Shown piece by piece: positions 612 to 14,474 of a DNA stretch of 14,474 nt. This stretch comes from Aquificota bacterium (GTDB taxonomy: Bacteria; Thermosulfidibacterota; Thermosulfidibacteria; Thermosulfidibacterales; B14-G1). The stretch covers positions 1 to 14,474 of the forward strand of contig WFSL01000012.1 in the NCBI GenBank assembly GCA_015486015.1, given 5' to 3'. The translations under genes were made by a program, and so were the position numbers. Under the pieces are notes generated by a model. That model was not told the DNA's origin. It did not search any database and worked only from the letters and a program-made list of their open reading frames with translations. Within the stretch, counting starts at the first letter, position 1. Each line of letters opens with the position of its first letter.

Positions 612-616
612 GGAGG
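611..616 (+). promoter_or_regulatory. Shine-Dalgarno deciding the acyl-CoA dehydrogenase start
   Basis: AGGAGG lies six bases before ATG 623. This favours ATG 623 over the in-frame GTG at 608, which would sit inside the thiolase stop region and lacks a comparable site. Confidence 0.75.
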
Positions 617-622
617 TGGGAA

Positions 623-1789
623 ATGATCAGGAACGTGGATTTTTACTTGATGGAGGAGCTTTTGGAGGAAGAGGAAAAGATCATCCGTGATACCACCAGA
701 AGGTTTGTAGAGGAGAAGGTATTGCCCCTAATTCCTGAGCACTACGATAAGGGCACCTTTCCCACGGAGCTTATACCGGAGATAGGTAAGCTGGGCCTCT
801 TTGGCATTACCATCCCCCAGGAGTATGGGGGGGCAGGGGCCAGCTATTTTTCCTATGGGCTTGCCTGCCAGGAGCTGGAATGGTGCGACAGCGGGCTGAG
901 GAGTCTGGTCTCTGTGCAGAATTCCCTTTGCATGTATCCCATTTATGCTTACGGTTCTGAGGAACAGAAAAGAAAGTACCTCCCCAGGATGGCTACAGGG
1001 GAGATCATCGGTTGTTATGGGCTTACAGAGCCCGATGCAGGCTCAGACCCCGCCAGCATGAGGACCGTGGCCAAAAAGGTAGAGGGAGGATGGGTCCTTA
1101 ACGGCAACAAGATCTGGATCACCAATGCCCCCATAGCTGGTCTGGCCGTGGTATGGGCCAAGACCCAGGAAGGGGTGAGGGGGTTCATCGTGGAGAGGGG
1201 TACTCCGGGCTTTGAGACACCGGAGATCAAACAGAAGATGTCCCTTAGGTTTTCCCCCACGGGAGAGATTGTTCTGGAGGACTGTTTTGTGCCAGAGGAA
1301 AACATGCTTCCTGGGAGCGAGATGGGCATGAAGGCGCCATTTTCCTGCCTCACCCGGGCGAGGTACGGCATAGCTTGGGGAGGGGTGGGTATGGCGGCCT
1401 TCTGCTATGAGAGGGCATTGGAATATGCCAAGGAGCGCATACAATTTGGGAGGCCCCTGGCCTCATTCCAGCTCATCCAGCAGGACCTGGCGGATATGCT
1501 CACGGAGATTACGAAGTGCCAGCTATTGGTCTATCGGTTGGGCAGGCTCTTTGATGAAGGAAGGGCATCCCATGTGATGGTCTCCATGGCCAAGAGGGCA
1601 TGCACCATGATGGCCCACCAGGTAACAAGAAAGGCCAGAGAGATCCTGGGAGGAAATGGGATCAGCCTGGAATATCACATAATAAGGCATCTGTGTAACA
1701 CAGAGACCACCACCACTTATGAAGGTACGAGTAAGATCCATGCCCTTATTCTGGGAAGACACATCACAGGAATCAGCGCCTTTAGATAA
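623..1789 (+). CDS. gcdH: Glutaryl-CoA dehydrogenase-like acyl-CoA dehydrogenase
   Basis: This FAD enzyme of 388 residues would oxidise glutaryl-CoA (or a close dicarboxylyl-CoA) and pass electrons to electron-transfer flavoprotein. It matches the GcdH family along its whole length: CYGLTEPDAGSDP (FAD/substrate loop), LNGNKIWITNAP, ARYGIAWGG, GGNGISLEYHIIRH and the end YEGTSKIHALILGRHITG. The catalytic base is Glu367 in YEGT. Glu86, Arg93 and Ser94 (ELEWCDSGLRS) align with the human residues recalled as Glu87, Arg94 and Ser95, which contact the substrate carboxylate, so a dicarboxylyl-CoA substrate is likely. Whether it also decarboxylates to crotonyl-CoA or stops at glutaconyl-CoA, as some anaerobes do, cannot be told here. 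Start chosen from the AGGAGG. Upstream neighbour is a thiolase; downstream is a CoA-transferase pair. Confidence 0.87.
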   Translation: MIRNVDFYLMEELLEEEEKIIRDTTRRFVEEKVLPLIPEHYDKGTFPTELIPEIGKLGLFGITIPQEYGGAGASYFSYGLACQELEWCDSGLRSLVSVQNSLCMYPIYAYGSEEQKRKYLPRMATGEIIGCYGLTEPDAGSDPASMRTVAKKVEGGWVLNGNKIWITNAPIAGLAVVWAKTQEGVRGFIVERGTPGFETPEIKQKMSLRFSPTGEIVLEDCFVPEENMLPGSEMGMKAPFSCLTRARYGIAWGGVGMAAFCYERALEYAKERIQFGRPLASFQLIQQDLADMLTEITKCQLLVYRLGRLFDEGRASHVMVSMAKRACTMMAHQVTRKAREILGGNGISLEYHIIRHLCNTETTTTYEGTSKIHALILGRHITGISAFR

Positions 1790-1994
1790 GGTGGGCGTAG
1801 AATCTTGGTGGAAAGGCTTCATTCATTATCAGATTGACTAAGCCATGTTAATTTGTTAAGTGGAAATAACGTCCGGTAGGTAGGCACTGGAGAACTTTGG
1901 CCCAAGAGACTCAGAGTTCAGTTGTACTTTTCAGAGGGGGAGTTGGGGGCAGTCAAAAAGGGATAGTTTCCACAGTTTTGATGGGAGGAGTGGG
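1790..1994. other. Intergenic gap inside the acyl-CoA cluster
   Basis: This 205-base stretch is the only sizeable gap in the plus-strand block. It holds no credible gene, no strong terminator hairpin and no B12-box-like sequence. A TTGACT at 1834-1839 could be a -35 element, but the hexamer about 17 bases later (TAAGTG) is a poor -10, so a promoter for the CoA-transferase genes is possible but not shown. GGAGGAG ending four bases before ATG 1995 is the ribosome binding site of the next gene. Confidence 0.5.
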
Positions 1995-2846
1995 ATGAGA
2001 GAGAAACTGATGGATGCAAGAGAGGCCATCGCCAGATTTGTAAGGGATGGTTGCTCTATTGCCATTAGCGGGGTGGGTAGAAATGCCTCTCCCATGGCCC
2101 TGGTGAGGGAGATTATCAGGCAAAGGAGGAAGGATCTCACCATAATAGGACCTGAAAAGGGGATGGACTTCGATATCCTCATAGGTGCTGGGTGTGTGAA
2201 AGAGGTGGTCTTTGCCTTTGTGACCTTAGAGGAGTTCGGTTTTGCCAGAAGTTTTAGGAGGGCTGTGGAGTCTGGCACCATTAGGGTTACAGAACATACG
2301 TGAGCTACCATTCTCACAGGGCTGCGGGCTGCAGCCTCAGGGGTGAGTTTCCTCCCCATAAAGGGGTTGGAAGGCTCAGATCTGCTGAAGATAAGGGGTT
2401 TTGAGACTGTCACATGCCCTTATACAGGGGAGAGATATATAGCCTGTCCAAAGATTGAACCCGATGTGGCGATAATGCATGGGCAGAGGGCAGATAAGTA
2501 TGGGAATGTTCAACTGGAGGGCCCTCCCCTGGATCATGTGATCATGGTAAAGGCGGCCAAAAGAGCGATCATCTCCGTGGAGGAGATAGTGCCTACAGAT
2601 AAAATCAGGGAGAATCCCATAGCCACGGTTATACCCCATTATATGGTGGATGCCATCGTGGAATTACCTTATGGGGCCCATCCCGCCTCATGCCATGGAT
2701 ACTACGAGAGCGATAGAGAGCATGTGAGGGAATATGCAAAGGCTTCCGATACCCCCGAAGGCCTTCAGGACTATCTGGCCCGGTATGTGTATGGGGTGAA
2801 GGACCATGAGGAGTACATGGATATGGTGAAGGGGGTAAGGTTATGA
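1995..2846 (+). CDS. CoA-transferase subunit A, glutaconate/3-oxoacid type, interrupted by an in-frame TGA
   Basis: Alpha subunit of a class I CoA-transferase moving CoA between acyl-CoA and a free acid. The 283-codon frame resembles glutaconate CoA-transferase A: DGCSIAISGVG near the N-terminus, MDFDILIGAGCVKEV, then RAAASGVSFLP, EPDVAIMHGQRADKYGNVQ, EEIVPTDKIRENP, DAIVELPYGAHPASCHGYYESD and the C-terminal KDHEEYM. Codon 103 (2301-2303) is TGA, between ...VTEHT and ATILTGLRAAA. The frame is the same before and after and both halves align with the family, so this is a single-codon event, not a frameshift. Options: selenocysteine insertion (a SECIS-like hairpin follows), a recent nonsense mutation, restart at GTG 2343 (no good ribosome site), or a sequence error. 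In relatives I recall, this position is polar and not Cys, which weakens the selenocysteine reading. The gene overlaps subunit B by ATGA. Confidence 0.8.
2313..2347 (+). promoter_or_regulatory. Hairpin downstream of the in-frame TGA, SECIS-like
   Basis: A perfect 6-bp stem GGCTGC (2320-2325) / GCAGCC (2331-2336) has the loop GGGCT. Below it CTCAC (2313-2317) pairs with GTGAG (2343-2347) across an asymmetric internal loop. The apical loop begins 23 bases after the TGA and starts with GG, which fits the published bacterial SECIS pattern as I know it (loop roughly 16-37 bases downstream, G among the first two loop bases). It also recalls the E. coli fdhF hairpin with loop GGUCU. It lies in coding sequence rich in Ala and Gly codons, so a chance GC stem is quite possible. 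Confidence 0.3.
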
Positions 2847-3628
2847 GTGACTACACTATTGCAGAGCTCATGTCCGTTTGTATGGCTAAGGAGGTGAGGG
2901 ACGGAGACCTTTTGGTGCAAGGTCTCTACTCTCCCATGGTGATGGTGGGGTGCTGGCTTGCCAAGCGGACCCACGCTCCCCATGCGGTGATCTTCAACGT
3001 CTCCGAGGGGATAGAGGGCAGGCCCAGATATCTTCCATATTCCACGGCGGAGCCTGAGCTGGCCAGGGATTGCGTGGCGTTCCCAGACTTCCTCCACGTT
3101 GGAGAGCTGGCAGCCAGGGGAAGACTGGATCTGGTTTTTTTGAGTGCAGCCCAGGTGGACATGTACGGCAACACAAACCTCTCTGTGATAGGGGATTACT
3201 GCCATCCTAAGGTGAGACTCCCCGGCGGGGCGGCCACCACTTACTTTTTCGGTATGGCTAAGCGTTCTGTTATTTGGATTGTGAGGCAGAGCAGAAAGAG
3301 TTTCGTTGAAAAGGTGGACTTCATCACGGGTGTGGGCTACCTGGATGGCCCCGGAGCCAGGGAGAAGGCTGGGCTTAGGTGGGGAGGTCCCGTAAGGGTA
3401 ATCACCAATCTGGGGGTCTATTCTTTTGACGAGGAGAGCAAAAGGATGAAGTTGGATTCGAGGCACCCTGGCGTATCCGTGGAAGAGATACTCGAAAACA
3501 CAGGCTTCGAGTTGATTCTCCCTCCAGAGGTACCAGAGACCCCTCCTCCTACCCAAGAGCAGCTCAGGCTTATCAGGGAGATGGATCCTAATGGAGTAAG
3601 GGAGCTGGAGTTTAAGAAGGAGGTGTGA
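2843..3628 (+). CDS. CoA-transferase subunit B, glutaconate/3-oxoacid type
   Basis: Beta subunit (261 residues) of the class I CoA-transferase, made from an ATGA overlap with subunit A, so the two are probably translationally coupled and assemble together. It aligns with glutaconate CoA-transferase B over its length: ELMSVCMAKEVRDGD at the N-terminus, FLSAAQVDMYGNTNLSVIGDY, RLPGGAATTYF, DFITGVGYLDGPGAREKAGL, VITNLGVYSFDEESKRM and VSVEEILENTGFEL. The catalytic Glu of this class lies in a segment that here reads NVSEGIEGR (residues 52-60). Glu55 is the best candidate, but spacing differs by about one residue from Acidaminococcus GctB as I recall it, so catalytic competence is not certain. A hydrolase of the IpdAB type, which shares this fold, is an alternative. 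The operon suggests a dicarboxylyl or ring-derived acyl-CoA. Confidence 0.82.
   Translation: MSDYTIAELMSVCMAKEVRDGDLLVQGLYSPMVMVGCWLAKRTHAPHAVIFNVSEGIEGRPRYLPYSTAEPELARDCVAFPDFLHVGELAARGRLDLVFLSAAQVDMYGNTNLSVIGDYCHPKVRLPGGAATTYFFGMAKRSVIWIVRQSRKSFVEKVDFITGVGYLDGPGAREKAGLRWGGPVRVITNLGVYSFDEESKRMKLDSRHPGVSVEEILENTGFELILPPEVPETPPPTQEQLRLIREMDPNGVRELEFKKEV
3617..3623 (+). promoter_or_regulatory. Shine-Dalgarno deciding the start of the second acyl-CoA dehydrogenase
   Basis: AAGGAGG ends seven bases before ATG 3631, inside the end of the subunit B gene. It favours ATG 3631 over the in-frame GTG at 3625, which is only one base from the motif. Confidence 0.75.
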
Positions 3629-3630
3629 AG

Positions 3631-4833
3631 ATGTTAGATTTTTCCCTTTCTTTTGAGCAAAAAACGCTTCGCCAGACTGTCAAGAGGTTTGTAGAGAAAG
3701 AGATCGTCCCAATCGCCCTGGAATTTGAGAAGGATGAAATGGAAGGTAAGCTGGCCCATGAGGTGATCCAGAAGGCTGCCCAGGCAGGGATACTGGGTCT
3801 TCCGGTGCCTGAGGAGTATGGTGGGGGAGGGGCGTCGGGTATCGAGTGTAACATTGCCTTGGAGGAGCTGGCAGTGGGATGTGGTGGCATTGCCACTGCC
3901 ATTGGGGCCAGTTGGTTTGGCCAGACGCCCATTCTTATGGCAGCCACGAAGGAGCAGCGGGAGAGATGGTTTCCCATCCTGGCCTCCAAGGAAGAGGGGC
4001 ACCTGGTCTGCATGGCCATGACCGAGCCCCAGGGGGGATCCGATATAGAGAATGCCCAGATGGGCCTGAGGACTGTGAGAACACGGGTGAGGTTTGAGGG
4101 TGACGAGATTGTTGTAACCGGTACTAAACTCTGGCCCAGCAATTTTGACGTCTCCACTCTGTATACGGTGGTGGCCACAACAGATCCCCAGAAGGGACCT
4201 GAGGGTTCGTGCCTGGTGGTAGTTGAAAGGGGTGCCAAAGGTCTCTCCTTTAGCAAACCCGTACCCAAGATGGGCATGCATGCCGATAGAAACGGTGAGA
4301 TTATCTTTGAAGATGTGAGGATCCCAAAAGAAAACATGTTGGGCAAGGTGGGAGACGGTTTCAAGCTTTTGCAAAGGACCTTGGTTTACAATAGGGTGGG
4401 GGCTGGGGCCATATCCGTGGGTATGGCCAGAGGGGCCTTTGAAAGGGCGTTGAAGTGGGCAAAGGAGAGGACAGTGATGGGGAAACCCCTGGCGGAGCAC
4501 CCTGTGGTTTCCTCTAAGCTGGCGGAGATGGCTGCCAAGATAGAGATGTCCAGGTTACTGGTGTGGAGGGCAGCCTGGTACAACGCCCAGCCCAAAAAGA
4601 GGAGCATGAAGTGGGCCAGTATGGCCAAGGTCTACGCCAGCGATCTGGCCATGGAGGTGACCACGGATGCGGTACAGGTAATGGGGTCCTATGGGTATGC
4701 CAGGGAATATGGGGTGGAGAAGTACATGAGGGATAACAAGATCATCCAGATATACATTGGGGCCAACGAACTCACCAAACAGGTGATAGGTGAAGAACTG
4801 CTCACCGCTCCTGAGGACATGTTCGAGGTGTAG
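3631..4833 (+). CDS. Acyl-CoA dehydrogenase family protein lacking the canonical catalytic Glu
   Basis: A 400-residue FAD-dependent acyl-CoA dehydrogenase fold. Seen: LDFSLSFEQKTLRQTVKRFV at the start, LPVPEEYGGGGASGIE, CMAMTEPQGGSD (FAD loop), GTKLWPSN, EDVRIPKENMLGKVGDGFKLL, ERTVMGKPLAEHPVV and VQVMGSYGYAREYGVEKYMRDNKIIQIYIGANELTKQVIGEE. At the usual catalytic base (YEGT in short- and medium-chain enzymes) this protein has Ile376 (YIGANEL). The alternative Glu of isovaleryl-CoA and long-chain dehydrogenases, on the helix read here as LLQRTLVYNRVGAG, also appears absent. Related enzymes with a moved base exist, for example the cyclohex-1-ene-carboxyl-CoA dehydrogenases of benzoate and cyclohexane-carboxylate metabolism, so it may act on a ring, perform a 1,4-dehydrogenation, or run as a reductase. 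It lies three bases after the transferase B gene. Family firm, reaction unknown. Confidence 0.85.
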   Translation: MLDFSLSFEQKTLRQTVKRFVEKEIVPIALEFEKDEMEGKLAHEVIQKAAQAGILGLPVPEEYGGGGASGIECNIALEELAVGCGGIATAIGASWFGQTPILMAATKEQRERWFPILASKEEGHLVCMAMTEPQGGSDIENAQMGLRTVRTRVRFEGDEIVVTGTKLWPSNFDVSTLYTVVATTDPQKGPEGSCLVVVERGAKGLSFSKPVPKMGMHADRNGEIIFEDVRIPKENMLGKVGDGFKLLQRTLVYNRVGAGAISVGMARGAFERALKWAKERTVMGKPLAEHPVVSSKLAEMAAKIEMSRLLVWRAAWYNAQPKKRSMKWASMAKVYASDLAMEVTTDAVQVMGSYGYAREYGVEKYMRDNKIIQIYIGANELTKQVIGEELLTAPEDMFEV

Positions 4834-4842
4834 GAGGTAACC

Positions 4843-6321
4843 ATGGAGAAGAGAAAGTATGGGCTCTTCATAGGTGGAGATTGGGTAGAGGCGGAAAGTG
4901 GAGAGACCTTTTTCTCTGCCTTTCCTGCCACGGGTGAAGTGGTAGCGGAGCTGGCCAAGGCGGGCAAAGCAGACGTGGACAAAGCAGTGAAAGCGGCCAG
5001 GGCCGCTTTTGAGGAGGGAAAGTGGCCTAAGCTCTCGGCAACGGAGAGGGGGAGGCTTCTAAGAAAGGTCGCCCAGGGGATCCAGGACAGGTTAGAAGAG
5101 TTTGCGAGGCTGGAAACCTTGGACACAGGGAAGCCTATCAGGGACTCCCTTAGGATTGATATCCCCATGGTGGTGGATGTCTTTGACTACTATGGAGGAC
5201 TGGCAGACAAGATTATGGGAGAGACCATTCCTGTGCCTGGGAACTTCTTGGACTTTACTTTGAGGGAACCCGTGGGTGTAGCCGGGCTCATTGTGCCCTG
5301 GAACTACCCATTATTCCTTGCCTCCTGGAAGATTGCACCTGCACTGGCTGCAGGATGTACGGTGGTGGTGAAGCCTGCATCTCTAACCCCCCAAACTGTC
5401 CTTGAACTGGCCAACGTGATGAACGAGGTGGGGGTGCCGCCGGGCGTGTACAATGTGATCACTGGTCCAGGTAGCGAGGTGGGGGCTGCCCTTGTGGAGC
5501 ATCCAGGTGTTGACAAGGTAGCTTTGACTGGTGAGACCCAGACAGGGAAGTTGGTGATGGAGATGGCGTCCAAAGGGGTGAAGAATATCTCCTTGGAGCT
5601 GGGTGGGAAGTCCCCCAACATCGTCTTCGAAGATGCCAGCATGGATGAGGCTGTGAGGGGTGCCCTTTTTGGTATCTTCATGAACCAGGGGGAGGTTTGC
5701 TGTGCAGGGAGCAGACTCCTTCTCCAGGAAAGCATCAAGGAGGAGTTTTTGGGGAAGCTGGTAGAGATGGCCAGGGGCATAAGGCTTGGTCATCCCTTAG
5801 AGAGGGAGACCCAGTTTGGTCCCTTAGTCTCACAGGAGCAGTTGGAGAAAGTGGAAGGCTATGTGGAAAGCGGCTTGGAAGAGGGGGCCCAGCTCTTGAC
5901 GGGTGGGAAGAGGCCACAGGGTGAGGCCTTTAGCAAGGGCTTCTATTATGAACCTACTGTGTTCTCCGAGGTTAAGCCCCACATGAAGATTGCCCAGGAG
6001 GAGATCTTTGGTCCTGTCCTCTCTGTGATCACCTTCAAGGACGAGAAGGAGGCGATCTCCATAGCCAATGATACCATATATGGTCTTGCAGCGGGTATCT
6101 GGACTAGGGATGTGAAGAGGGCCTTCAGGGTGGCCAAGGCCATCAAGGCAGGGAATATCTGGATTAATACTTATAACATGCTGCCTCCTCAGGCCCCCTT
6201 TGGTGGCTATAAGATGAGTGGCATTGGCAGGGAGCTGGGTATCCATGTGATCTCCCTCTACACAGAGGTTAAAAACATCATGGTCTATCTTGGGAAGGGG
6301 GGAGTGAAGTGGTTTGGTTAG
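4843..6321 (+). CDS. NAD(P)-dependent aldehyde dehydrogenase (betaine-aldehyde/ALDH superfamily)
   Basis: A 492-residue aldehyde dehydrogenase oxidising an aldehyde to the free acid with NAD(P)+. Catalytic and cofactor residues are all present: Asn154 in VPWNYPL, Lys177 in VVKPAS, the GETQTGK turn (230-236), general base Glu252 in LELGGKSPN and nucleophile Cys286 in NQGEVCCAGSR. EIFGPVLSV near residue 390 and the PFGGYKMSG end are typical. It is preceded by GGAGG with six bases to ATG 4843 and lies nine bases after the dehydrogenase stop, so it is the last gene of the plus-strand operon. A free-acid product could be the substrate for the nearby CoA-transferase, giving a path aldehyde to acid to acyl-CoA to beta-oxidation; that link is inference. 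The exact aldehyde is not predictable. Confidence 0.9.
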   Translation: MEKRKYGLFIGGDWVEAESGETFFSAFPATGEVVAELAKAGKADVDKAVKAARAAFEEGKWPKLSATERGRLLRKVAQGIQDRLEEFARLETLDTGKPIRDSLRIDIPMVVDVFDYYGGLADKIMGETIPVPGNFLDFTLREPVGVAGLIVPWNYPLFLASWKIAPALAAGCTVVVKPASLTPQTVLELANVMNEVGVPPGVYNVITGPGSEVGAALVEHPGVDKVALTGETQTGKLVMEMASKGVKNISLELGGKSPNIVFEDASMDEAVRGALFGIFMNQGEVCCAGSRLLLQESIKEEFLGKLVEMARGIRLGHPLERETQFGPLVSQEQLEKVEGYVESGLEEGAQLLTGGKRPQGEAFSKGFYYEPTVFSEVKPHMKIAQEEIFGPVLSVITFKDEKEAISIANDTIYGLAAGIWTRDVKRAFRVAKAIKAGNIWINTYNMLPPQAPFGGYKMSGIGRELGIHVISLYTEVKNIMVYLGKGGVKWFG

Positions 6322-6546: not shown

Positions 6547-7062
6547 CTACTTGACTATTACCGGCATCCCACAGACGGTGAGGATTACCCTATGGGCCAG
6601 GCGGGCTACCTCCTGGTTCAATAGTCCGGCTATATCCCTAAATTCCCTACTCCCTGGATCGCAGGGTACAATGCCGGAGCCTACCTCGTTGGTCACAATA
6701 ATTAGATCACAGGGTGGGTGTTTGAGTGCCCTCAGAAATCTCTGAACCATAGGGTCATCCATAGATACTTTTCCTGCCCTATGCTGGAGATTCCCCAGCC
6801 ACACGGTAAGACAGTCTACGATGGCTACCTCAATCTCAGGGGGCAGGTTGTCGAGGGCATGTGCCAAATCCATAGGCTCTTCTATAGTGATAAAGTTGGG
6901 GTCCCTATCGAGTCGGTGCCTCTTAATTCTCTCTCTCATCTCTTCATCTACTGGCTCTGCCGTGGCAATGAACGCCTTCTTAGCGCAGGTAGAAGCCAGC
7001 TCAAGGGCATAACGGCTCTTGCCGCTCCTTGCCCCTCCTGTGATAAGTGTAATGTGTCCCAT
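6547..7062 (-). CDS. cobU: Adenosylcobinamide kinase / adenosylcobinamide-phosphate guanylyltransferase
   Basis: CobU (171 residues) phosphorylates adenosylcobinamide and then activates it with GTP to AdoCbi-GDP, the first steps of nucleotide-loop assembly in the cytoplasm. Nearly every family signature is seen: P-loop GGARSGKS (9-16), ATAEPVDEEMRERIKRH with His49 matching the GMP-accepting His of the Salmonella enzyme, TIEEP (59-63), VDCLTVWLGNL (82-92), VTNEVGSGIVP (123-133), FRDIAGLLNQEVA and the C-terminal V.GMPVIVK. The ATG follows directly on the TGA of the ABC ATPase gene (TGAATG), with GGAGA about seven bases upstream. It is the last gene of the minus-strand operon and fixes the operon's role in corrinoid salvage. 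CobS, CobT and CbiB are not in the window. Confidence 0.95.
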   Translation of the reverse strand: MGHITLITGGARSGKSRYALELASTCAKKAFIATAEPVDEEMRERIKRHRLDRDPNFITIEEPMDLAHALDNLPPEIEVAIVDCLTVWLGNLQHRAGKVSMDDPMVQRFLRALKHPPCDLIIVTNEVGSGIVPCDPGSREFRDIAGLLNQEVARLAHRVILTVCGMPVIVK

Positions 7063-7860
7063 TCAGGTTCTCCCTTTTCCATGCCCCTTAGAGACCGGAA
7101 TTATATAAGGCCTGGAGGAGATGGGATGCCTCCTTACCAATACTTCTGTTTTGTATACCTCTCTCAGGATTTTGCAGGTCAAGACCTCTTGCGGAGCCCC
7201 CGTACTGTGTACCCTGCCCTCGTCTAAAAGGAGTAGCCTATCACAAAATTCACTGGCCAAATTCAGCTCGTGGAGCACTATCACCACTGTTAGCCCCAGC
7301 TCCGCGTTGAGCCTCTTCACCAAATCGAGGACCGCTATCTGATGGGCGATGTCAAGATGCGCTACAGGTTCATCGAGGAGCAAAAGTTCTGGCTCCTGGG
7401 CTAAAGCCCTTGCCATAAAGGTGAGCTGCCTTTCTCCACCGCTCATGTCCCTGAGGGGCCGATCTTTGAGGTGCAAAATCCCAGTCATGGACATGGCCTT
7501 TTCTGCAACTTCGAGGTCTCTCTTTGTTTCGAGGAACTGGAGCCCTCGGTAGTGGGGCATCCTACCCAAAAGCACGTACTCCTGAACCCTCATGAGGCCT
7601 GTTCGGGTCTCCTGAGAAACCACAGCCACCCTCTTTGCAAATGCCTTCAGGTCCATTTTCCAGATATCCCTTCCATCCAGCAGGACGTTTCCTTTTAAGG
7701 GTTTAAGCACCCTGGATATCGCCCTAATAAGTGTGGTCTTGCCAGAACCATTGGGCCCGATGATCCCCAGGAACTCCCCCTGTGCCACGGATAGGTTCAC
7801 CTCTTGTAAGAGGAATCCATCTTCATAGCCACAGGTAAGCTGTCGGGCCTCCAACATCAT
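7063..7860 (-). CDS. btuD: ABC transporter ATP-binding protein, cobalamin/Fe-siderophore type
   Basis: Cytoplasmic ATPase (265 residues) that would power corrinoid import through the adjacent permease. Motifs: Walker A GPNGSGKT (35-42), Q-loop VVSQET (80-85), signature MSGGERQ (139-145), Walker B LLLLDEP with Glu164, D-loop AHLD and switch His197 in IVLHELN. The family (FecE/FhuC/BtuD) carries iron-siderophores, haem or cobalamin; the corrinoid assignment comes from cobU and cbiZ in the same operon. The gene begins with ATGATG overlapping the permease TGA (ATGA overlap), showing tight coupling. The extra C-terminal region after residue 220 is normal for the family. The family is certain and the substrate is likely. 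Confidence 0.9.
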   Translation of the reverse strand: MMLEARQLTCGYEDGFLLQEVNLSVAQGEFLGIIGPNGSGKTTLIRAISRVLKPLKGNVLLDGRDIWKMDLKAFAKRVAVVSQETRTGLMRVQEYVLLGRMPHYRGLQFLETKRDLEVAEKAMSMTGILHLKDRPLRDMSGGERQLTFMARALAQEPELLLLDEPVAHLDIAHQIAVLDLVKRLNAELGLTVVIVLHELNLASEFCDRLLLLDEGRVHSTGAPQEVLTCKILREVYKTEVLVRRHPISSRPYIIPVSKGHGKGRT

Positions 7861-8864
7861 TCCAGGGTCACCTGTTTCTTGGTAAGGGCATAAATGAAGA
7901 GAACGCCTCCCACTATCCCCGTAATGACCCCCACAGGTAACTCCATGGGGGCTATCACTGTCCTGGCCAGGGTGTCACATAAGACCAGAAAAGCTGCCCC
8001 ACCCAAGAAAGAGGAGGCCAATAGGATCCTATGGTCCTGCCCCACCAGCATGCGAAGAAAGTGGGGTACCACCAATCCCACGAAACCGATAACCCCTGCA
8101 GAAGAGACACACAACCCTGTTATCACAGAAGCTAAGAGAAAGAGGAGCTTCTTGCTCCTCTCCACATTGACCCCCAGGTGCAGGGCTTCTTCTTCTCCCA
8201 GGGCCAAGGCATTGAGGTCCAAGGCAAAGAAATACGAGATCCCCAGGCCCATTAGGGCCACACACACCATGAGAGCCACCATCCACCAGTTCGTCCCGCC
8301 CAAGAATCCCATGATCCAAAAGACAATGCCGTGAAGATCCTCCAAACGGGAAACAGCCATGATTAGCATAATGAGAGATGAGGAGATGAAACTCACCATC
8401 ACCCCTGTGAGCAGCAATCCCTGGATTCTCAAAATCCCCCGCCGGGTGCTCAACAGGTAGACCAGCGCTATTACCAGCACCGCTCCTCCGAAGCCCGTGA
8501 GGGGCAAGGCTATCATGCCCAGGACCTTGGGCAGGTGCGAGAGCATCCCCAGAGAGACCCCAAGGGCAGCCCCTCCCGAGATCCCTAAGGTGTAGGGTTC
8601 CACCAATGGATTACGGAAAAGCCCCTGAAGGATAACCCCAGCAAGGCTGAGGCCTCCCCCTACAGCAAAGCCGAGGAGAATCCTGGGCAAACGCAACTGG
8701 AAGACAATGGAATGGGCCACACTCTCTTTTCGTGAGAATGAAGCGAAGACCTCTTTCAAAGAAAAGCCTGTGGAGCCCAAGGAGAGAGAAAAAAGACCCA
8801 CAATCACTACAAAGAGCAATAAGAAAAGGATCCATAATCCCCATTTAGATAGCCTGCCTTCCAA
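7857..8864 (-). CDS. btuC: ABC transporter permease, BtuC/FecCD family
   Basis: Inner-membrane permease (335 residues) with the long hydrophobic profile of the ten-helix BtuC/FecCD fold. Seen: an N-terminal segment IVGLFSLSLG, FQLRLPRILLGFAVGGGLSLAG (the family's R-LPR motif), LVEPYTLGISGGAALG, SSAGVIGFVGLVVPHFLRMLVGQDHR (typical cytoplasmic coupling region) and ELPVGVITGIVGGVLFIYAL near the end. The start is a TTG that follows the btuF1 stop directly (TAATTG), chosen because GGGGGAG lies six bases upstream and the next in-frame ATG would remove the first membrane segment. It lies between the binding-protein and ATPase genes, so the three form one importer. A siderophore role is possible in principle, but the corrinoid genes around it argue for corrinoid. 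Confidence 0.9.
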   Translation of the reverse strand: MEGRLSKWGLWILFLLLFVVIVGLFSLSLGSTGFSLKEVFASFSRKESVAHSIVFQLRLPRILLGFAVGGGLSLAGVILQGLFRNPLVEPYTLGISGGAALGVSLGMLSHLPKVLGMIALPLTGFGGAVLVIALVYLLSTRRGILRIQGLLLTGVMVSFISSSLIMLIMAVSRLEDLHGIVFWIMGFLGGTNWWMVALMVCVALMGLGISYFFALDLNALALGEEEALHLGVNVERSKKLLFLLASVITGLCVSSAGVIGFVGLVVPHFLRMLVGQDHRILLASSFLGGAAFLVLCDTLARTVIAPMELPVGVITGIVGGVLFIYALTKKQVTLE

Positions 8865-9716
8865 TTACCGCTCCCCCAGTTTCATCTCGGGGTGAAGTAG
8901 TCTAACCAGTTCCTTCAAAGTCTTAACAAAAGTGACAGGGGTAGGACTGCAGAGTTTGTAGGAGTCCACCACGTACACCTGACCTTTCCTCACCGCCTTG
9001 ATAGTCTTGAACCTCTCCCAGGTTTTTTTCTCTTTTTCTCCTATCACTCCCATGGTGACTATCAAGATGACATCAGGATCTCCCTTTAAGACCTCCTCCT
9101 TGCTGTAAAGGCCGCTCCCGGCATTAGCGGCGATATTTATTCCCCCAGCCATCTCTATGTAATCGTTGACAAAGGAACCTTTGGTAGCGGTAAATAGGGG
9201 CCTGGCCCCAATTTCCACAAATACTTTAGGTTTCTTTAATCCCTTTGTTCCTTTCTTGATACGTGCCACCTGGGCCTTCACTCTCCGAATGATCTCCCTC
9301 GCCCTATTTTGCCTTCCAATAAGCCTGGCGAGTTCCATAAATTGCTCACATATCTCCTCAAAGTTTTTTGGCTCGGGGAAGACTGTTACCTTAATCCCCA
9401 GATCCTTCATCTTTTTAATGGCCTTGGGATCTGTAAGGGAGGTGGCAAAAACGATATCGGGCTTAAGGGCGATGACCTTCTCCAGATTCACCTCTATGGC
9501 CCTGCCCACCTTCTCCTTGAGTTTAGCCTCTGGCCTTTTACAGTATGTGGTGCAGCCCACGAGGTGATCCCCAGCACCTAACAGGTAGAGCTCTTCTGTA
9601 ATGGAGGGCCCTAAGGAGATGATGCGTCGAGGATAGCTTTGGGCGCACAAAGAACCTGCACAAATTAAAAATAATATCACACAAAAGGCAAAATAAACAG
9701 TCGCTCTTTTTATCAA
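8865..9716 (-). CDS. btuF: Exported corrinoid-binding protein, BtuF-like (periplasmic)
   Basis: Solute-binding protein (283 residues from TTG 9716) that would deliver corrinoid to the adjacent BtuC-type permease. The start begins MIKRATVYFAFCVILFLICAG, a clear signal peptide with cleavage near residues 22-26 (CAGSLCAQ); there is no good lipobox, so it is probably soluble in the periplasm. The BtuF/TroA fold is seen in PRRIISLGPSITEELYLLGAGD, VGCTTYC, VGRAIEVNLEKVIALKPDIVFA, VFPEPKNFEEI and VNDYIEMAGGINIA. The TTG overlaps the radical SAM stop in a TTGA junction with GAGAGG five bases upstream. The alternative ATG at 9749 would bury the signal peptide behind about ten extra residues. Haem or siderophore binding is the alternative; operon context favours corrinoid. 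Confidence 0.87.
   Translation of the reverse strand: MIKRATVYFAFCVILFLICAGSLCAQSYPRRIISLGPSITEELYLLGAGDHLVGCTTYCKRPEAKLKEKVGRAIEVNLEKVIALKPDIVFATSLTDPKAIKKMKDLGIKVTVFPEPKNFEEICEQFMELARLIGRQNRAREIIRRVKAQVARIKKGTKGLKKPKVFVEIGARPLFTATKGSFVNDYIEMAGGINIAANAGSGLYSKEEVLKGDPDVILIVTMGVIGEKEKKTWERFKTIKAVRKGQVYVVDSYKLCSPTPVTFVKTLKELVRLLHPEMKLGER
8871..8877 (-). promoter_or_regulatory. Shine-Dalgarno for the TTG start of btuC
   Basis: On the minus strand GGGGGAG ends six bases before TTG 8864, which directly follows the TAA of the binding-protein gene. It decides an otherwise unusual start codon. Confidence 0.65.
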
Positions 9717-10432
9717 TACACCCTCTCTACCCCATATTTGATTTTGCATCCGTAATGCAAGATAGAAACATTCTTCAGATACTTTTCGGCAACTCTCTTT
9801 GCCTCTTGCATCTCTTCTATACTTGGCCTTCTGAACTTATCTTTCTCCCCAAAAGGCATATATGCATCGATGCGATATGGGATTTTACTGTCTATACTGC
9901 TGATAAATTTGGCTATCTTTGCTATCTCTTTCTGATCAATATATCCAGGAATAAGGACACTTTCTGCCCTTAACTTTAAGTGGGAAGTGGAGTAATATTT
10001 TGCAAAATTGCTTAATACACGCTCAGGATACTCCCTTCCTGTAAAATCTTTAAATATGACTTTTGTTATAGCCTTTATGCTCACACAAACCTCATCTATT
10101 ATCCCTGTCTCCACAAATTCATATCCATTTGTCAAAAGGATATTGTATGAAAGAAACTCCTTCTTCAGCCTAAGTGCCAATGGAACGAATGAAGTGTCCA
10201 CAGTAGGCTCGCTTCCCATAAAGAATACCCTCTTGAAGGGATATAGCTTTAACAGGGGCAAGACATCTTCAGGCGACAGTGAGCCACGGACTGGTAGCTG
10301 TTTTCCCATCAGATGGCAATCAATAGGATGAAACCTCGCTATGCAGCCCCAGCAGGAAAAGTTGCATTCTGCATCAAAGTAGAGATATATCTCACCCCGC
10401 TCTGGTGCATAGGTGATGTGATAAACCCCCAT
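9713..10432 (-). CDS. Radical SAM protein, short, PflA-like (copy 1)
   Basis: A 239-residue radical SAM protein. The 4Fe-4S ligands are Cys23, Cys27 and Cys30 in AECNFSCWGC (CxxxCxxC); the GGEP motif that binds the SAM amino group reads GSEP (73-76). It is compact, like pyruvate formate-lyase activating enzymes, with no SPASM or B12-binding domain visible. Its second half (for example IAKFISSIDSKIPYRID and RRPSIEEMQEAKRVAEKYLKNV) matches the other radical SAM protein of this operon, so the two are paralogues. The start ATG has AAGGAGAG upstream and lies 17 bases after the dehydrogenase stop; its stop overlaps btuF1. No glycyl radical enzyme is present here, so an activase role is not supported. 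A function in corrinoid remodelling or ligand synthesis is only inferred from location. Confidence 0.85.
   Translation of the reverse strand: MGVYHITYAPERGEIYLYFDAECNFSCWGCIARFHPIDCHLMGKQLPVRGSLSPEDVLPLLKLYPFKRVFFMGSEPTVDTSFVPLALRLKKEFLSYNILLTNGYEFVETGIIDEVCVSIKAITKVIFKDFTGREYPERVLSNFAKYYSTSHLKLRAESVLIPGYIDQKEIAKIAKFISSIDSKIPYRIDAYMPFGEKDKFRRPSIEEMQEAKRVAEKYLKNVSILHYGCKIKYGVERVY
9722..9727 (-). promoter_or_regulatory. Shine-Dalgarno for the TTG start of btuF1
   Basis: On the minus strand GAGAGG ends five bases before TTG 9716, within the last codons of the radical SAM gene. This explains why the start lies at a TTGA stop-start overlap. Confidence 0.6.
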
Positions 10433-10449
10433 GGGCTCTCTCCTTCATG

Positions 10450-11487
10450 TTATATGGAAGGTTTTACCACTACCTTCATGGCTTTGTGAGTATCAACTAA
10501 TCTTAAACCTCTAATCAATTCTTTCAGTGAAATTTGGTGTGTGATCAAATAGTCCACTTTTACTTGTCCTGTAGATAAGATTGTCAATGCTTCCCTGTTC
10601 TGCTCAGAAGTGCAACCATAAGCTCCCGATATTTGTAGTTCTTTGTAGTGGATCAAATTGTGATCAATAAGAACATCTTTGTGCATGCGCAAAAGACCTG
10701 AGAAGAAGGCAATTCTTCCTCGCTTTCTTAGGATGTTGATGCCCAAGGCCAGAACCTCAGGTGCTGAGCACGCTGGAATCACCACATCTATCTCATTTTT
10801 CATTATATTTATAATTGAAGACTCACTATCTAAGTTTATGATGGCATCCACTTGTAGGTGCTGCTCGGCGAATTTAAGCCTTTCTCTTTCCCTCTCAACG
10901 ACAATAACTTTAGATGCTCCGAAGAGTCTGGAGAGTTGTGCAAAAAGGTGTCCTATTGGACCAGCACCAAAAACGGCAACCACATCACCCTGTTCTATAC
11001 GACACCGTCTCAGCGCATTGATACAACAAGCAATGGGTTCTGCTAAAGATGCCTCCTCAAAGGATACAGATGGTGGAATTCTGTTTACAGATCCATTTTC
11101 AACGCCTTTCGCAGGAATGAACATATATTCAGCAAATCCCCCATCATAGTGAAAACCTATTATTTTTATATTGTCACACATGTTTGAAGCACCTTTCTTG
11201 CAGAAGGAACAGCTTCCACATGTTACTCCAGGTGCTACCTGAACCTTGTCGCCCACTCTGAACTTTCCTCTGATTCTGGTTCCAACCTCTGCAACCGTTC
11301 CTGCGATCTCGTGGCCAAGTATGCGTGGCAGTTCAAGATCCCGATGTCCCACATGGAACATCTTTACATCTGTCCTGCAGATAGCACATGAGTCTACCTT
11401 TATAAGTATCCCGCCATCGCCACAGACGGGGGTGCTCACATCCTCCACCTTTATATTTTCCAAGCCCCTCAGTACCGCTGCCTTCAT
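10450..11487 (-). CDS. Zn-dependent medium-chain alcohol/polyol dehydrogenase
   Basis: A 345-residue medium-chain dehydrogenase of the sorbitol/threonine dehydrogenase type that oxidises an alcohol, or reduces a carbonyl, with NAD(P). Catalytic zinc ligands are Cys37 (SCAICRTD), His59-Glu60 (GHE) and probably Glu150 (SLAEPIACC). The structural zinc site has all four Cys (90, 93, 96 and 104 in CGSCSFCKKGASNMC). The Rossmann motif is GAGPIG (174-179), followed by VIVVERERERL. It starts in an ATGA overlap with the TrpD-like gene, so the two are coupled and probably act in one pathway. Codon use is AT-rich compared with the downstream transporter genes. The substrate is unknown. Such an enzyme is not a standard cobalamin gene, though aminopropanol or a lower-ligand precursor alcohol could be considered. 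Confidence 0.87.
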   Translation of the reverse strand: MKAAVLRGLENIKVEDVSTPVCGDGGILIKVDSCAICRTDVKMFHVGHRDLELPRILGHEIAGTVAEVGTRIRGKFRVGDKVQVAPGVTCGSCSFCKKGASNMCDNIKIIGFHYDGGFAEYMFIPAKGVENGSVNRIPPSVSFEEASLAEPIACCINALRRCRIEQGDVVAVFGAGPIGHLFAQLSRLFGASKVIVVERERERLKFAEQHLQVDAIINLDSESSIINIMKNEIDVVIPACSAPEVLALGINILRKRGRIAFFSGLLRMHKDVLIDHNLIHYKELQISGAYGCTSEQNREALTILSTGQVKVDYLITHQISLKELIRGLRLVDTHKAMKVVVKPSI

Positions 11488-12578
11488 TCGATCTTTTCCA
11501 TCAAGGACTCGAGTTTTTCCAAACCCTTTTTACTGTTGGAGTTCTGCTCCTTAACCCACTCCTTTAATTTTTCTAAGGCCTTACCGGACTTGACCGTTTC
11601 CTTGGAAATCTCCAATCCCTCTCTCAGATCTCTGGCTTTGCCTGCCAGGTACAGGATTGGGGCGGCATTGATACATGCAATATTGGTCCTTGGCTCTGTC
11701 TCCATACCTCCCAGAGTCCTGAGAAAGCGCAGCGCTTCCCTGTCCCTTCCTGCCTCAGGGGAAAGTTCAGCCTCGCCGACTCGCTGGATGCCAAAATCTT
11801 CAGGGGATAGAAGGTAAGTAGAGATTTCTCCGTCCTCGTGCAGCTCTGCAACAATTGTATTTCCTACAATAGATATCTCATCCATACCTTTGGTTCCATC
11901 GCTGTTCATTCCATGAACTACAATGGCTTTCTGGTAGCCTATCTCTTTCATTACCTTGACAATAGGTTTAACTAAATCCTTGGAATAAACACCTCTAACT
12001 CCGTAGCGTGGAAGTGCAGGGTTGGCAAGGGAAGCAGCAATGTTCAGAAAGGTACCAAAGTAAATCTGCGATAAGATTCTTGCTAATTGAGGATGAATTT
12101 TAGGACTCATACCATTAAAAATTCCGATCCCTGCTTTTTCTATGCTTCTTTTTGTAATTTCTGGATCACACTCAACCTCAACGCCTACAGCCTCCAGAAT
12201 ATCAACTGCTCCGTGTTTTGAAGTAATCGCCCTTGCTCCATGTTTTGCCATGAAAACACCATTAGCTGCTGCAATTATGGAGGCAACTGTGCTTATGTTA
12301 AATGTGTCAAGTTCGTCCATACCGGTACCGCAGTTCTCTACCAGGGGCTGAGATATAGATGGCTTCACTTTCACTGTGTCGTATTTGTAGATTGCTTCCC
12401 AAACACCCGCTATTTCCTCTGGAGTTGCACCTTTAGCGGTCATTGCTGCCAGAAAGGCCCCTTGTTGCAAGGGAGGCTGATCATTCATGAGGATTTTTTT
12501 GAATGCTTCGCGTGCTTCAGCGTGTGTGAGGTCTTTTTTCTGTATAAGCTTGCTGATTATAGCACCAAACTTTCTCAT
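11484..12578 (-). CDS. TrpD-like phosphoribosyltransferase (glycosyltransferase family 3) with altered acceptor site
   Basis: A 364-residue protein with the anthranilate phosphoribosyltransferase fold: helical N-terminal domain (LTHAEAREAFKKIL), then the PRPP loop NCGTGMDELDTFNIST (82-97; GTGGD is usual), AKHGARAITSKHGAVDILEAVGV (111-133), and MDEIS with Asp233-Glu234 for Mg. PRPP- and Mg-binding residues are kept. Changes are at the acceptor site: the KHGN Asn is Ala115, and the Arg that precedes LG.RT.FN in true TrpD is missing in QLARILSQIYFGTFLNIAASLANP. The VHGxxG loop carries extra residues (VHGMNSDGTKGMDE). No trp genes are nearby. I infer transfer of phosphoribose to another aromatic or amine acceptor, perhaps linked to corrinoid metabolism. 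Start ATG 12578 is one base after the btuF2 stop with GAGG upstream; the upstream ATG at 12626 lies deep inside btuF2. Confidence 0.8.
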   Translation of the reverse strand: MRKFGAIISKLIQKKDLTHAEAREAFKKILMNDQPPLQQGAFLAAMTAKGATPEEIAGVWEAIYKYDTVKVKPSISQPLVENCGTGMDELDTFNISTVASIIAAANGVFMAKHGARAITSKHGAVDILEAVGVEVECDPEITKRSIEKAGIGIFNGMSPKIHPQLARILSQIYFGTFLNIAASLANPALPRYGVRGVYSKDLVKPIVKVMKEIGYQKAIVVHGMNSDGTKGMDEISIVGNTIVAELHEDGEISTYLLSPEDFGIQRVGEAELSPEAGRDREALRFLRTLGGMETEPRTNIACINAAPILYLAGKARDLREGLEISKETVKSGKALEKLKEWVKEQNSNSKKGLEKLESLMEKIE

Positions 12579-12579
12579 C

Positions 12580-13398
12580 TTATTTTTCCTCTTTATGTAA
12601 CGTTTGATGCGCGGGAAGCGGTTCAAAGACTTCTGGGTGAATGAGCCTTGCCAATGTCTCTAATCCTTCAGCAGCTCGAGGGCCAGGGCGACATATTAGC
12701 TCTGCCTTTAACCCATAGATATTGCCTTTTCTGCATGCGTCTGTTCTCTTAAATTCTGGCCTTTCCATTACAGCCGACAGAAGTTCCTCGCTTTTATCAT
12801 ATCCCTCTGAATAGAGAACAAGCTGGGGATTTTGGGCAATTATTTCCTTGATTATGGCATCTTCGCTTGCGCTTTCAGCTATATCTCTTGCCACGTTTAC
12901 ACCTCCAAGCATCTCCATCAGCTTGCTCATATGGCAGGATCTCCATGCAGTACAAGCAATGTCACACAAATAGCATACACGCACCTTGTTAGAAGCCAGA
13001 GCGGCTGTATTGAGGATGTTTTTCATCTTTTGCTCTATTTTTTCAGCGATATTCAGAGCTTTTTCAAGGCAGCCCAATACTTTTCCTATCTCAATGATAT
13101 TTTGGGGAGCTTTAAATATAGACTCAGAAGACAAGAGACAACAATGAATGCCTCTATCTACTAATTTTTCTGTAATCCCCATGCTTTCATGAAAGTCCAT
13201 GGCCAATACCAGGTCTGGTGAAAGGGAGAGGATCTTCCCTACTTCGGGGGTGGAAAACCCACCTACCTTCTCAATCAGCTTTGTCTCTGGGGGGTAATTG
13301 CAGTAATCCGTCACTCCAACCAGCCTATCACCCATTCCAAGGGCAAAGACGGTCTCCGTATTGGAAGGGGCCAAGGAGACAATTCTGCTGTATCGCAT
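12580..13398 (-). CDS. Cytoplasmic BtuF-like corrinoid-binding protein, Cys-rich
   Basis: A 272-residue BtuF/TroA-fold protein: RIVSLAPSNTETVFALGMGD, LVGVTDYCNYPPE, VGGFSTPEVGKILSLSPDLV, LGCLEKALNIAEKI, KLMEMLGGVNVARD, PQLVLYSEGYD and CRPGPRAAEGLETLARLIHPEVF. There is no signal peptide from MRYSRIVSL, so it should stay in the cytoplasm, unlike the second copy in this operon. It has ten Cys, including the run CYLCDIACTAWRSC (Cx2Cx3Cx5C), in the segment where relatives have the conserved LEWxDPPFxAGHW pattern. A metal or corrinoid-Co ligand role is possible. Start ATG 13398 was chosen because AGGTG lies eight bases upstream; ATG 13404 lies only two bases after that motif. It begins seven bases after the radical SAM stop. 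It may be a corrinoid chaperone or sensor; transport is less likely. Confidence 0.82.
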   Translation of the reverse strand: MRYSRIVSLAPSNTETVFALGMGDRLVGVTDYCNYPPETKLIEKVGGFSTPEVGKILSLSPDLVLAMDFHESMGITEKLVDRGIHCCLLSSESIFKAPQNIIEIGKVLGCLEKALNIAEKIEQKMKNILNTAALASNKVRVCYLCDIACTAWRSCHMSKLMEMLGGVNVARDIAESASEDAIIKEIIAQNPQLVLYSEGYDKSEELLSAVMERPEFKRTDACRKGNIYGLKAELICRPGPRAAEGLETLARLIHPEVFEPLPAHQTLHKEEK

Positions 13399-13405
13399 GG
13401 GCATT

Positions 13406-14263
13406 TCACCTATAATCCAATATCCGATCCATAGTGAGGAATTGGGTGTCCCAATCCGGAATGACAAACCTTGACACCTTGTCAATCTCTCTGAATTTCT
13501 CCATCAGCCCATCGTCTCTTATCTCTATGCACCTATATGGATCGGGTTTATAAGCCGTTTTTGTCGTGTAATACTCCACTCTTTTTAAATAGCGCCTAGC
13601 GATATAGTATGCATCTTGCATCTCACTTGCTTCGGGTTTTCTGTATCTGCAACCTGCAATCTGCTCGGGAGCAAACTGATAGATTTTATAAGGAATATCC
13701 TCGCTGATATCACTCAGAAACTTGGCGATCTTGCATATCTGATCCGTTTCGACAAGACCCGGAATATATATTGTCCTGGCATAGAAGGGCAAGTTATACT
13801 TGTGCAATAGCTCCGCAGCCCTAAGGACTGTTTCGTTACTCTTACCTGTATACCTTTTGTGGACTTCTTCATCAAATGCCTTTATGTCAAGTTTTATATA
13901 GTTTATATTCAGCGACTTTAGCTCTCTCGCAAAGTTTCCATCAAGCAAAAACCCGTTTGTCGAAATGCCTATCCTTGGAATGCTCAACGCCCTTAGACTA
14001 TATATAAGCGAAAGAAGATAGTCTCTATTTGTAGTCGGTTCTCCTCCGGTTATCTGAACATCACCAACCAAGTGACCATATATGACTGATGAAGACCTCA
14101 CAATGAGCTGAATTAGTTCATCTACTGTAAATTCTCTTCCTATTTCGTTCTTAGCCAGCGCAAAACAACCCTCGCAATCAAAATTGCACCCTGCCATGTT
14201 TACCTTTATTTTTTCATACGGGCTAACTACACAACTAAGAAAAGGGATCTTTTTTCTCTCCAT
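13406..14263 (-). CDS. Radical SAM protein, PflA-like (copy 2)
   Basis: A 285-residue radical SAM protein. Cys26, Cys30 and Cys33 in AGCNFDCEGC bind the 4Fe-4S cluster; GGEP is intact (73-76, QITGGEPTTNRD), and ISTNGFLLD and YIKLDIKAFDEEVHKRYTGK follow, as in PflA/NrdG-type activating enzymes. The region YIPGLVETDQICKIAKFLSDISEDIPYKI and the MQDAYYIARRYLKRV helix match the shorter copy. The C-terminus has an added 30-40 residues (CIEIRDDGLMEKFREI...). The ATG overlaps the end of cbiZ by 29 bases and has GAGGAG upstream, so it is coupled to corrinoid salvage. No glycyl radical enzyme gene is seen, so it may act directly on a small molecule or corrinoid. Fold is certain, substrate unknown. Confidence 0.88.
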   Translation of the reverse strand: MERKKIPFLSCVVSPYEKIKVNMAGCNFDCEGCFALAKNEIGREFTVDELIQLIVRSSSVIYGHLVGDVQITGGEPTTNRDYLLSLIYSLRALSIPRIGISTNGFLLDGNFARELKSLNINYIKLDIKAFDEEVHKRYTGKSNETVLRAAELLHKYNLPFYARTIYIPGLVETDQICKIAKFLSDISEDIPYKIYQFAPEQIAGCRYRKPEASEMQDAYYIARRYLKRVEYYTTKTAYKPDPYRCIEIRDDGLMEKFREIDKVSRFVIPDWDTQFLTMDRILDYR

Positions 14264-14474
14264 TCTCCTCGGTCCTTCTATAAATGGCCTTTTTCACAGC
14301 CTGAGTTACAGTCCTTGCCATTGTTTCCCCTGCTTTTGTGTGACCCCCAACAAAGGTGATCTTGGGTCCAAAGCCACTTACAACAATGGCACCATCTGTC
14401 CCTGTACCGGTTGCCTGAAGTCCTGGGTTGTATGAGCTCCTGATATCCAGATCCTGGAAGGCGATGGTCTTTGC
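14235..14474 (-). CDS. cbiZ: Adenosylcobinamide amidohydrolase, CbiZ (C-terminal part, 5' truncated)
   Basis: The last 79 codons of a gene running off the window edge, in the frame starting at base 14474. CbiZ hydrolyses adenosylcobinamide to adenosylcobyric acid and aminopropanol, letting cells salvage corrinoids and exchange the nucleotide loop. The visible part has the family signatures SYNPGLQATGTGTDGAIVVS and, further on, FVGGHTKAGETMARTVTQAVKKAI, which match the TGTGTD and HTKxGE motifs of CbiZ; a tail of about 15 polar residues follows. It is the most upstream gene seen in the minus-strand operon and overlaps the radical SAM gene by 29 bases. Because CobU at the other end of the operon uses the same adenosylcobinamide substrate, the operon can send it along two routes. 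Partial, but the motifs are distinctive. Confidence 0.85.
   Translation of the reverse strand, partial: AKTIAFQDLDIRSSYNPGLQATGTGTDGAIVVSGFGPKITFVGGHTKAGETMARTVTQAVKKAIYRRTEENGEKKDPFS

Follow-up and report, generated by a model that had tools for sequence, protein, structure and literature searches.

Two independently inherited, cobamide-linked gene units within a corrinoid uptake operon of an Aquificota bacterium

What are two radical S-adenosylmethionine (SAM) genes, a trpD-like gene, a zinc dehydrogenase gene, and a second btuF-like gene doing in the middle of a corrinoid-salvage operon? The question is raised by a window of 14,474 bp, the complete contig C12 of a 1.62-Mb genome bin of an Aquificota bacterium (G000). 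The functions that surround these genes are familiar: corrinoids are imported via BtuFCD, CbiZ can cleave the nucleotide loop, yielding cobyric acid, and CbiB, CobD, CobU, CobT, and CobS rebuild it (PMC6461909, PMC3541065). The initial annotation treated the five middle genes as a single module. Comparison with other genomes showed instead that they fall into two units with separate inheritance, each of them tied to cobamides: Unit A, consisting of the short radical SAM proteins rSAM1 and rSAM2, and Unit B, consisting of the TrpD-like protein (here called TrpDL) and its zinc dehydrogenase neighbor (ADH). We propose that the locus is a composite corrinoid uptake and remodeling operon combining these two independently mobile units, with Unit A acting on the corrinoid and Unit B in loop assembly, a proposal to which we give about even chances. 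Each set is found again next to B12 genes of unrelated microbes, and one also lies behind a B12 riboswitch, so the two enzyme sets are probably unrecognized steps in the uptake and rebuilding of B12-type cofactors.

The independence of the units was apparent from their gene contexts, which were read on contigs taken around matches, several of them short, in genomes that are mostly metagenome bins. Outside the genus of the window, rSAM1 and rSAM2 loci, many of them corrinoid loci, were without TrpDL and the dehydrogenase in every locus examined. The pair, in turn, was found without radical SAM genes in two cobamide operons. In G353 the operon reads nadB, GHMP kinase, cobD, cbiB, ADH, TrpDL, and cobT, and in G937, a genome that shares its phylum with the Omnitrophota bin G387, the order is cobU-cobT-cobS-cobD-cbiP-cbiB-ADH-TrpDL-btuF-btuC-btuD, with spacings of -14/+15/-22 around ADH-TrpDL. 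Closer to the host, for which the closest relatives sampled were eight members of its order, the island of G003 (same family) carries cobA, DUF71, cbiZ, rSAM1, the leaderless BtuF, rSAM2, btuF, and what remains of btuC, joined to a TonB receptor; the run from rSAM1 through the leaderless BtuF and rSAM2 to btuF has nothing in between, and TrpDL and the dehydrogenase are missing. A single pathway in which rSAM1, the leaderless BtuF, TrpDL, the dehydrogenase, and rSAM2 work together in forming, altering, or removing a single corrinoid ligand would fit the tight run of five genes in G000, four of which also occur in G001 (same genus). It would also fit the ratios of nonsynonymous to synonymous divergence (dN/dS) between G000 and G001, which at 0.18 for ADH and 0.22 for trpDL indicate that the pair is under constraint. 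However, the separate occurrences have already largely refuted such a pathway, and we consider it decidedly improbable. What holds from the earlier reading is that the middle genes belong to corrinoid metabolism, since both units recur in cobamide or corrinoid loci of other genomes; the cobamide involvement of both is well supported.

For Unit B, a search of 386 genomes returned two relatives scoring far over ordinary TrpD, in G353 (62% identity) and G251 (47%), and follow-up searches added G707, G713, G714, G711, and G937. In a maximum-likelihood tree all TrpDL proteins formed one clade apart from canonical TrpD (support 100/100), within which the cobamide-linked members formed one subclade (100/98). 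The suggestion that TrpDL and the dehydrogenase form a pair proved sound: all five members of the cobamide-linked subclade had the two genes side by side, and dehydrogenase relatives at 36-47% identity adjoined TrpDL in G353, G707, and G937. The order is TrpDL-ADH in the genus of the window and ADH-TrpDL elsewhere; thus, the pairing survives rearrangement. In G707 a short contig has ADH-TrpDL by itself, 63 nt downstream of a cobalamin riboswitch (RF00174, 103.3 bits).

TrpDL could nonetheless be an ordinary second anthranilate phosphoribosyltransferase that sits in a corrinoid island by chance. It aligns over its full length with Glycos_transf_3N and Glycos_transf_3, scores 287 bits against the TIGR01245 (TrpD) cut-off of 199, and shares the CGTGxD, NxST, and DE motifs of TrpD, a class IV phosphoribosyltransferase; moreover, its sister subclade adjoins genes for indole-3-glycerol-phosphate synthase (IGPS) and phosphoribosylanthranilate isomerase (PRAI). 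However, TrpDL differs from TrpD in its separate clade, its cobamide gene context, a GPL motif changed to ASL or GSL in the cobamide-linked subclade, and a two-residue insertion ahead of the FAPxxH region. Invariant or nearly invariant acceptor-site residues are replaced in TrpDL. When 8 TrpDL proteins were compared with 28 canonical TrpD rows, N115 of the KHGN motif (N in 28/28 canonical rows) was A in 8/8, R169 (R in 28/28) was L in 8/8, and R175, the second R of the RxELGxRT region (R in 25/28), was G in 8/8. In Sulfolobus TrpD these positions would correspond to N109 and R164, both anthranilate-binding, and to R170. The Mg/phosphoribosyl pyrophosphate (PRPP) motif DE233-234 was kept in all eight, as was the PRPP loop except for a change of GTGG to GTGM or GTGA. 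These losses suggest an acceptor without the carboxylate of anthranilate. TrpDL is also present in the cobamide operons of three groups, in G707 it and the dehydrogenase follow a B12 riboswitch, and G000 already has another, ordinary trpD on contig C13, 34% identical to TrpDL. An ordinary TrpD is thus highly improbable. TrpD-type chemistry has PRPP as its donor and proceeds with inversion to the beta configuration.

The initial annotation had cautioned against seeing in TrpDL a simple replacement for CobT, and the caution was well placed. G000 encodes a single full-length CobT (446 bits) adjoining CbiB and CbiP; a different contig encodes CobS and CobD, and CobU is one of the window genes, so TrpDL is not a CobT substitute, and replacement of CobT was rejected. 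Since the CobT is single and separate, there is no tandem ArsAB. The expected anti-occurrence with cobT was contradicted as well, cobT adjoining the pair in G353 and sharing its operon in G937 besides being present in the host. CobT and ArsAB, the NaMN:base phosphoribosyltransferases (PF02277; NaMN, nicotinate mononucleotide), likewise transfer phosphoribosyl groups in nucleotide-loop loci but belong to a different family, TrpDL having no PF02277 match. The substrate of CobT is NaMN (PMC9561151), and TrpDL might supply it by making NaMN from nicotinate or quinolinate, thereby recycling the nicotinate that CobT releases. A TrpD-type inversion would yield the beta-linked donor that CobT needs, and in G353 cobT adjoins TrpDL while nadB heads the operon. 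However, nicotinate and quinolinate have carboxylates and the acceptor-site arginines are gone, which disfavors NaMN supply, and the dehydrogenase would be left without a role; we regard this alternative as improbable. A further comparison is with the Bza pathway and BluB (PMC6461909), which are likewise small gene sets tied to cobamide synthesis, recalling the B12 riboswitch ahead of ADH-TrpDL in G707. The TrpDL loci differ in having a phosphoribosyltransferase and a dehydrogenase instead: in the loci read, no ThiC-like, BluB, methyltransferase, BzaF, or BzaAB protein was recognized, although no genome-wide bza or bluB search was made.

The reading we favor is that the pair has a part in making or modifying the base of the lower ligand or the ribotide of that base. 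Unit B would act in nucleotide-loop assembly alongside CobT, on the base side. TrpDL would transfer phosphoribosyl from PRPP to an aromatic acceptor other than anthranilate, probably one lacking a carboxylate, and its polyol-dehydrogenase-like partner would oxidize or reduce the product to give or modify the lower-ligand base or ribotide, which CobT and CobS would then install. The top family matches of the dehydrogenase are polyol and threonine dehydrogenases, and this likeness would suit a sugar hydroxyl as its target. Several observations weigh against so specific a role. Dehydrogenase identity between lineages is only 36-47%, its GHE motif is GEE in G353 and G707, and the cobamide-linked TrpDL subclade was found in only five sampled genomes. 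In addition, the sister subclade in the phylum of G251 lies beside paralogues of IGPS and PRAI and a gene for a molybdopterin oxidoreductase, with neither cobamide genes nor the dehydrogenase, so the TrpDL clade as a whole is not cobamide restricted. No usable TrpDL structure was obtained, a single-sequence model reaching a predicted local distance difference test (pLDDT) score of 35 and being left unused. The sister-subclade loci (L144:6629-12596, L153, L154, and L155), which also encode an AsnC-type protein, look like a tryptophan-like set in that phylum.

Turning to Unit A, an rSAM1 alignment scanned over 84,980 genomes led to 25 loci. Relatives with at least 48% identity were all in corrinoid loci with btuF, btuC, btuD, cbiZ, or DUF71, and rSAM1 loci with corrinoid genes came from Elusimicrobia (L048), Omnitrophota (L049), Desantisbacteria, UBP18, Nitrososphaeria (L051 and L052), and Hecatellales (L053). 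Archaeal and bacterial orthologues of rSAM2 adjoin btuF and btuC or sit between them. At least 18 rSAM2 matches were near btu or cob genes, and the archaeal carriers include members of the class to which a Methanocellales bin (L066) belongs and more than twelve genomes in the phylum of L053. As an internal control, six low-scoring rSAM2 paralogues from that phylum, Thermoproteota (L128, L130, and L132-L135), had corrinoid genes nearby in none of the six cases. Weighing against a strictly corrinoid-linked family, rSAM1-like proteins of anaerobic methanotrophic (ANME) archaea at 32-40% identity are mostly outside btu loci; these come from ANME-1, ANME-2, and Argoarchaeum bins (L057-L064). The closest precedent is DUF71-B12/COG2102, which was likewise predicted from its recurrence beside btuCDF and cbiB (PMC3541065) and co-occurs with rSAM1 and rSAM2 in many loci, but it is a PP-loop ATPase, and the paper that described it mentions a radical SAM protein nowhere. 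A stand-alone asparagine-synthase-type PP-loop protein also recurs with DUF71-B12 within these corrinoid islands (L041:16633-17592, L048:2055-2978, L049:5766-6713, and L117:13743-14666).

The CX3CX2C motif and PF04055 matches place Unit A in the radical SAM superfamily, and an AlphaFold2 model of rSAM1 (pLDDT 91.8) had as its best Protein Data Bank match the pyruvate formate-lyase (PFL) activating enzyme, with template modeling (TM) scores of 0.70/0.81. No NCBIfam model exceeded its cut-off for rSAM1 or rSAM2, and no NCBIfam equivalog was found for Unit A or Unit B. The PFL-activase fold, together with the GGEP, TNG, and DxKA motifs that rSAM1 shares with such enzymes, raises the alternative that rSAM1 and rSAM2 activate or mature some protein or peptide, of the glycyl-radical type or the ribosomally synthesized and posttranslationally modified peptide (RiPP) type, whose coregulation with B12 uptake would be incidental. 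In two related corrinoid islands CbpB (TIGR04163), a radical SAM enzyme that modifies peptides, and a small upstream peptide open reading frame (ORF) would fit this alternative. However, rSAM1 differs from PFL-activase-type enzymes in sitting in a corrinoid locus, neither a glycyl-radical enzyme nor a precursor peptide was recognized in the window operon (the search for the former covered the window genes), and CbpB is absent from G000 and most rSAM1/rSAM2 genomes. We consider activase or maturase roles rather unlikely. The CbpB-type radical SAM/SPASM gene itself was seen at L048:2975-4574 (702 bits) and L049:6706-8274, in the islands of the Elusimicrobia and Omnitrophota bins. Upstream of it is a 38-codon ORF ending ...YRKKCKxxGTGLSHYxLxDKK, a RiPP-like pair beside corrinoid uptake genes. 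At E <= 1e-40, CbpB was matched in G386 and G387 only, with no hit in G000 or in any of 25 further genomes, and the Cbp peptide system was rejected as the partner of rSAM1 and rSAM2 in G000.

We read Unit A, with its neighboring BtuF proteins, as belonging to import and remodeling. Most likely, rSAM1 and rSAM2 would perform SAM radical chemistry on imported corrinoid in the cytoplasm, just after import. The second, Cys-rich BtuF was first described as cytoplasmic, and alignment with 18 other BtuF proteins showed it to be leaderless: it begins MPMRYSRIVSLAPS, with no hydrophobic leader or signal peptide, and its pocket loop is replaced. The Cys residues of that loop, CDIACTAWRSCH, are kept in G003 (92% identity) and in none of the 17 other aligned BtuF proteins. 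SAM-dependent corrinoid adenosylation by rSAM1 and rSAM2 is possible. Four rSAM1 islands (L040, L041, L048, and L049) encode cobA, the ATP:corrinoid adenosyltransferase, and no cobA was seen among the genes near archaeal rSAM2, whole genomes lying outside that check.

What TrpDL, the dehydrogenase, rSAM1, and rSAM2 act on, and which reactions they catalyze, is what we infer, and a more specific scheme can be outlined, although we think it unlikely. On the Unit B side, an as yet undescribed lower-ligand route would have TrpDL join PRPP to a carboxylate-free aromatic amine, after which the dehydrogenase would either turn C1' into C2 of a benzimidazole-type ring by oxidizing the phosphoribosyl product or epimerize the ribotide from beta to alpha. 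BluB takes the benzimidazole C2 from the same carbon origin, C1', using flavin. Independently, rSAM1 and rSAM2 may be SAM-dependent corrinoid adenosyltransferases that join a 5'-deoxyadenosyl radical with Co(II).

Such candidates matter since, when 11,000 bacterial species were surveyed, 42% of those predicted to produce cobamides were without a known lower-ligand-setting gene (PMC6461909). For part of that gap the TrpDL/dehydrogenase pair offers a concrete candidate that can be assayed, one whose usual annotation would be tryptophan biosynthesis. In archaea and in several phyla of bacteria, the unannotated rSAM1 and rSAM2 families recur in the company of corrinoid importers, and they mark a second testable gap, the cellular processing of imported B12 analogues. 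A literature search for TrpD with cobamide, or radical SAM with btuC, btuF, or corrinoid, found nothing describing these genes in titles and abstracts, mostly outside subscription journals.

The island has also moved between genomes. Between G000 and G003, synonymous divergence (dS) was 0.028 for rSAM1 and 0.29 for the leaderless BtuF compared with 1.1 for cobT, and between G000 and G001 it was 0.14-0.16 for trpDL and ADH compared with 1.35 for cobT and 2.3 for btuC; these low island values indicate horizontal transfer. Furthermore, the middle genes have a G+C content of 0.41-0.45 versus 0.52-0.53 for btuC, btuD, and cobU, which fits a separate origin. In G001 the leaderless BtuF-TrpDL-ADH-rSAM2-btuF-btuC-btuD-cobU run is followed by cbiP, cbiB, cobT, cobS, and cobD, and in G003, as in G002, there is also a btuFCD-cobU-cobT locus apart from the island. 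Nothing supported an island carried on plasmids: plasmid records gave no rSAM1 match, and the plasmid TrpDL matches listed were only 34-36% identical, the annotated ones being trpD. In G003, the first ~30 residues of the ORF at L040:9906-11843 are BtuC-like and fused in frame to a TonB-dependent receptor, likely the scar of a btuC/btuD deletion from the island. A fluoride riboswitch (RF01734, 54.5 bits, L040:1384-1448) lies near cbiB in the same genome.

All ten minus-strand genes from cbiZ to cobU were recovered at the coordinates first assigned to them, tightly packed with gaps of -80 to +17 nt between ORFs and a 4-nt overlap (ATGA) of TrpDL and the dehydrogenase. Every gene except the truncated cbiZ had a clear Pfam match, and BtuF, BtuC, and BtuD domains are encoded together, as in a BtuFCD importer. 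The likely start of TrpDL at 12578 is an ATG preceded by AGAGG, a TTG-started ORF extending to 12626.

Table 1. Genes of the corrinoid operon, by position in the window
Gene or product	Position	Strand	Remarks
cbiZ C-terminus (adenosylcobinamide amidohydrolase), 79 codons	14235..14474	-	truncated by contig end; 95% identity to C-terminus of full CbiZ-like gene of G003
rSAM1, short radical SAM protein, CX3CX2C, PFL-activase fold	13406..14263	-	PF04055; Unit A, corrinoid-locus family
Leaderless BtuF-like protein, Cys-rich pocket loop CDIACTAWRSCH	12580..13404	-	PF01497; likely start 13404
TrpDL, TrpD-fold phosphoribosyltransferase, own clade	11484..12578	-	PF00591/PF02885; Unit B
Zn-dependent medium-chain dehydrogenase/reductase (MDR) paired with TrpDL	10450..11487	-	PF08240/PF00107; Unit B
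rSAM2, short radical SAM protein	9713..10432	-	PF04055; Unit A, corrinoid-locus family
btuF, exported corrinoid-binding protein	8865..9749	-	PF01497; N-terminal hydrophobic leader
btuC, corrinoid permease	7857..8864	-	PF01032; top NCBIfam match BtuC, under its cut-off
btuD, transporter ATPase	7063..7860	-	PF00005
cobU, adenosylcobinamide kinase/guanylyltransferase	6547..7062	-	NF004469 over cut-off; PF02283

A search across the window gave no Rfam element, riboswitch, or tRNA. The plus-strand genes at 1-6321, which are convergent to the operon and by reading encode a thiolase, acyl-CoA dehydrogenases, a CoA-transferase, and an aldehyde dehydrogenase, look unrelated to it.

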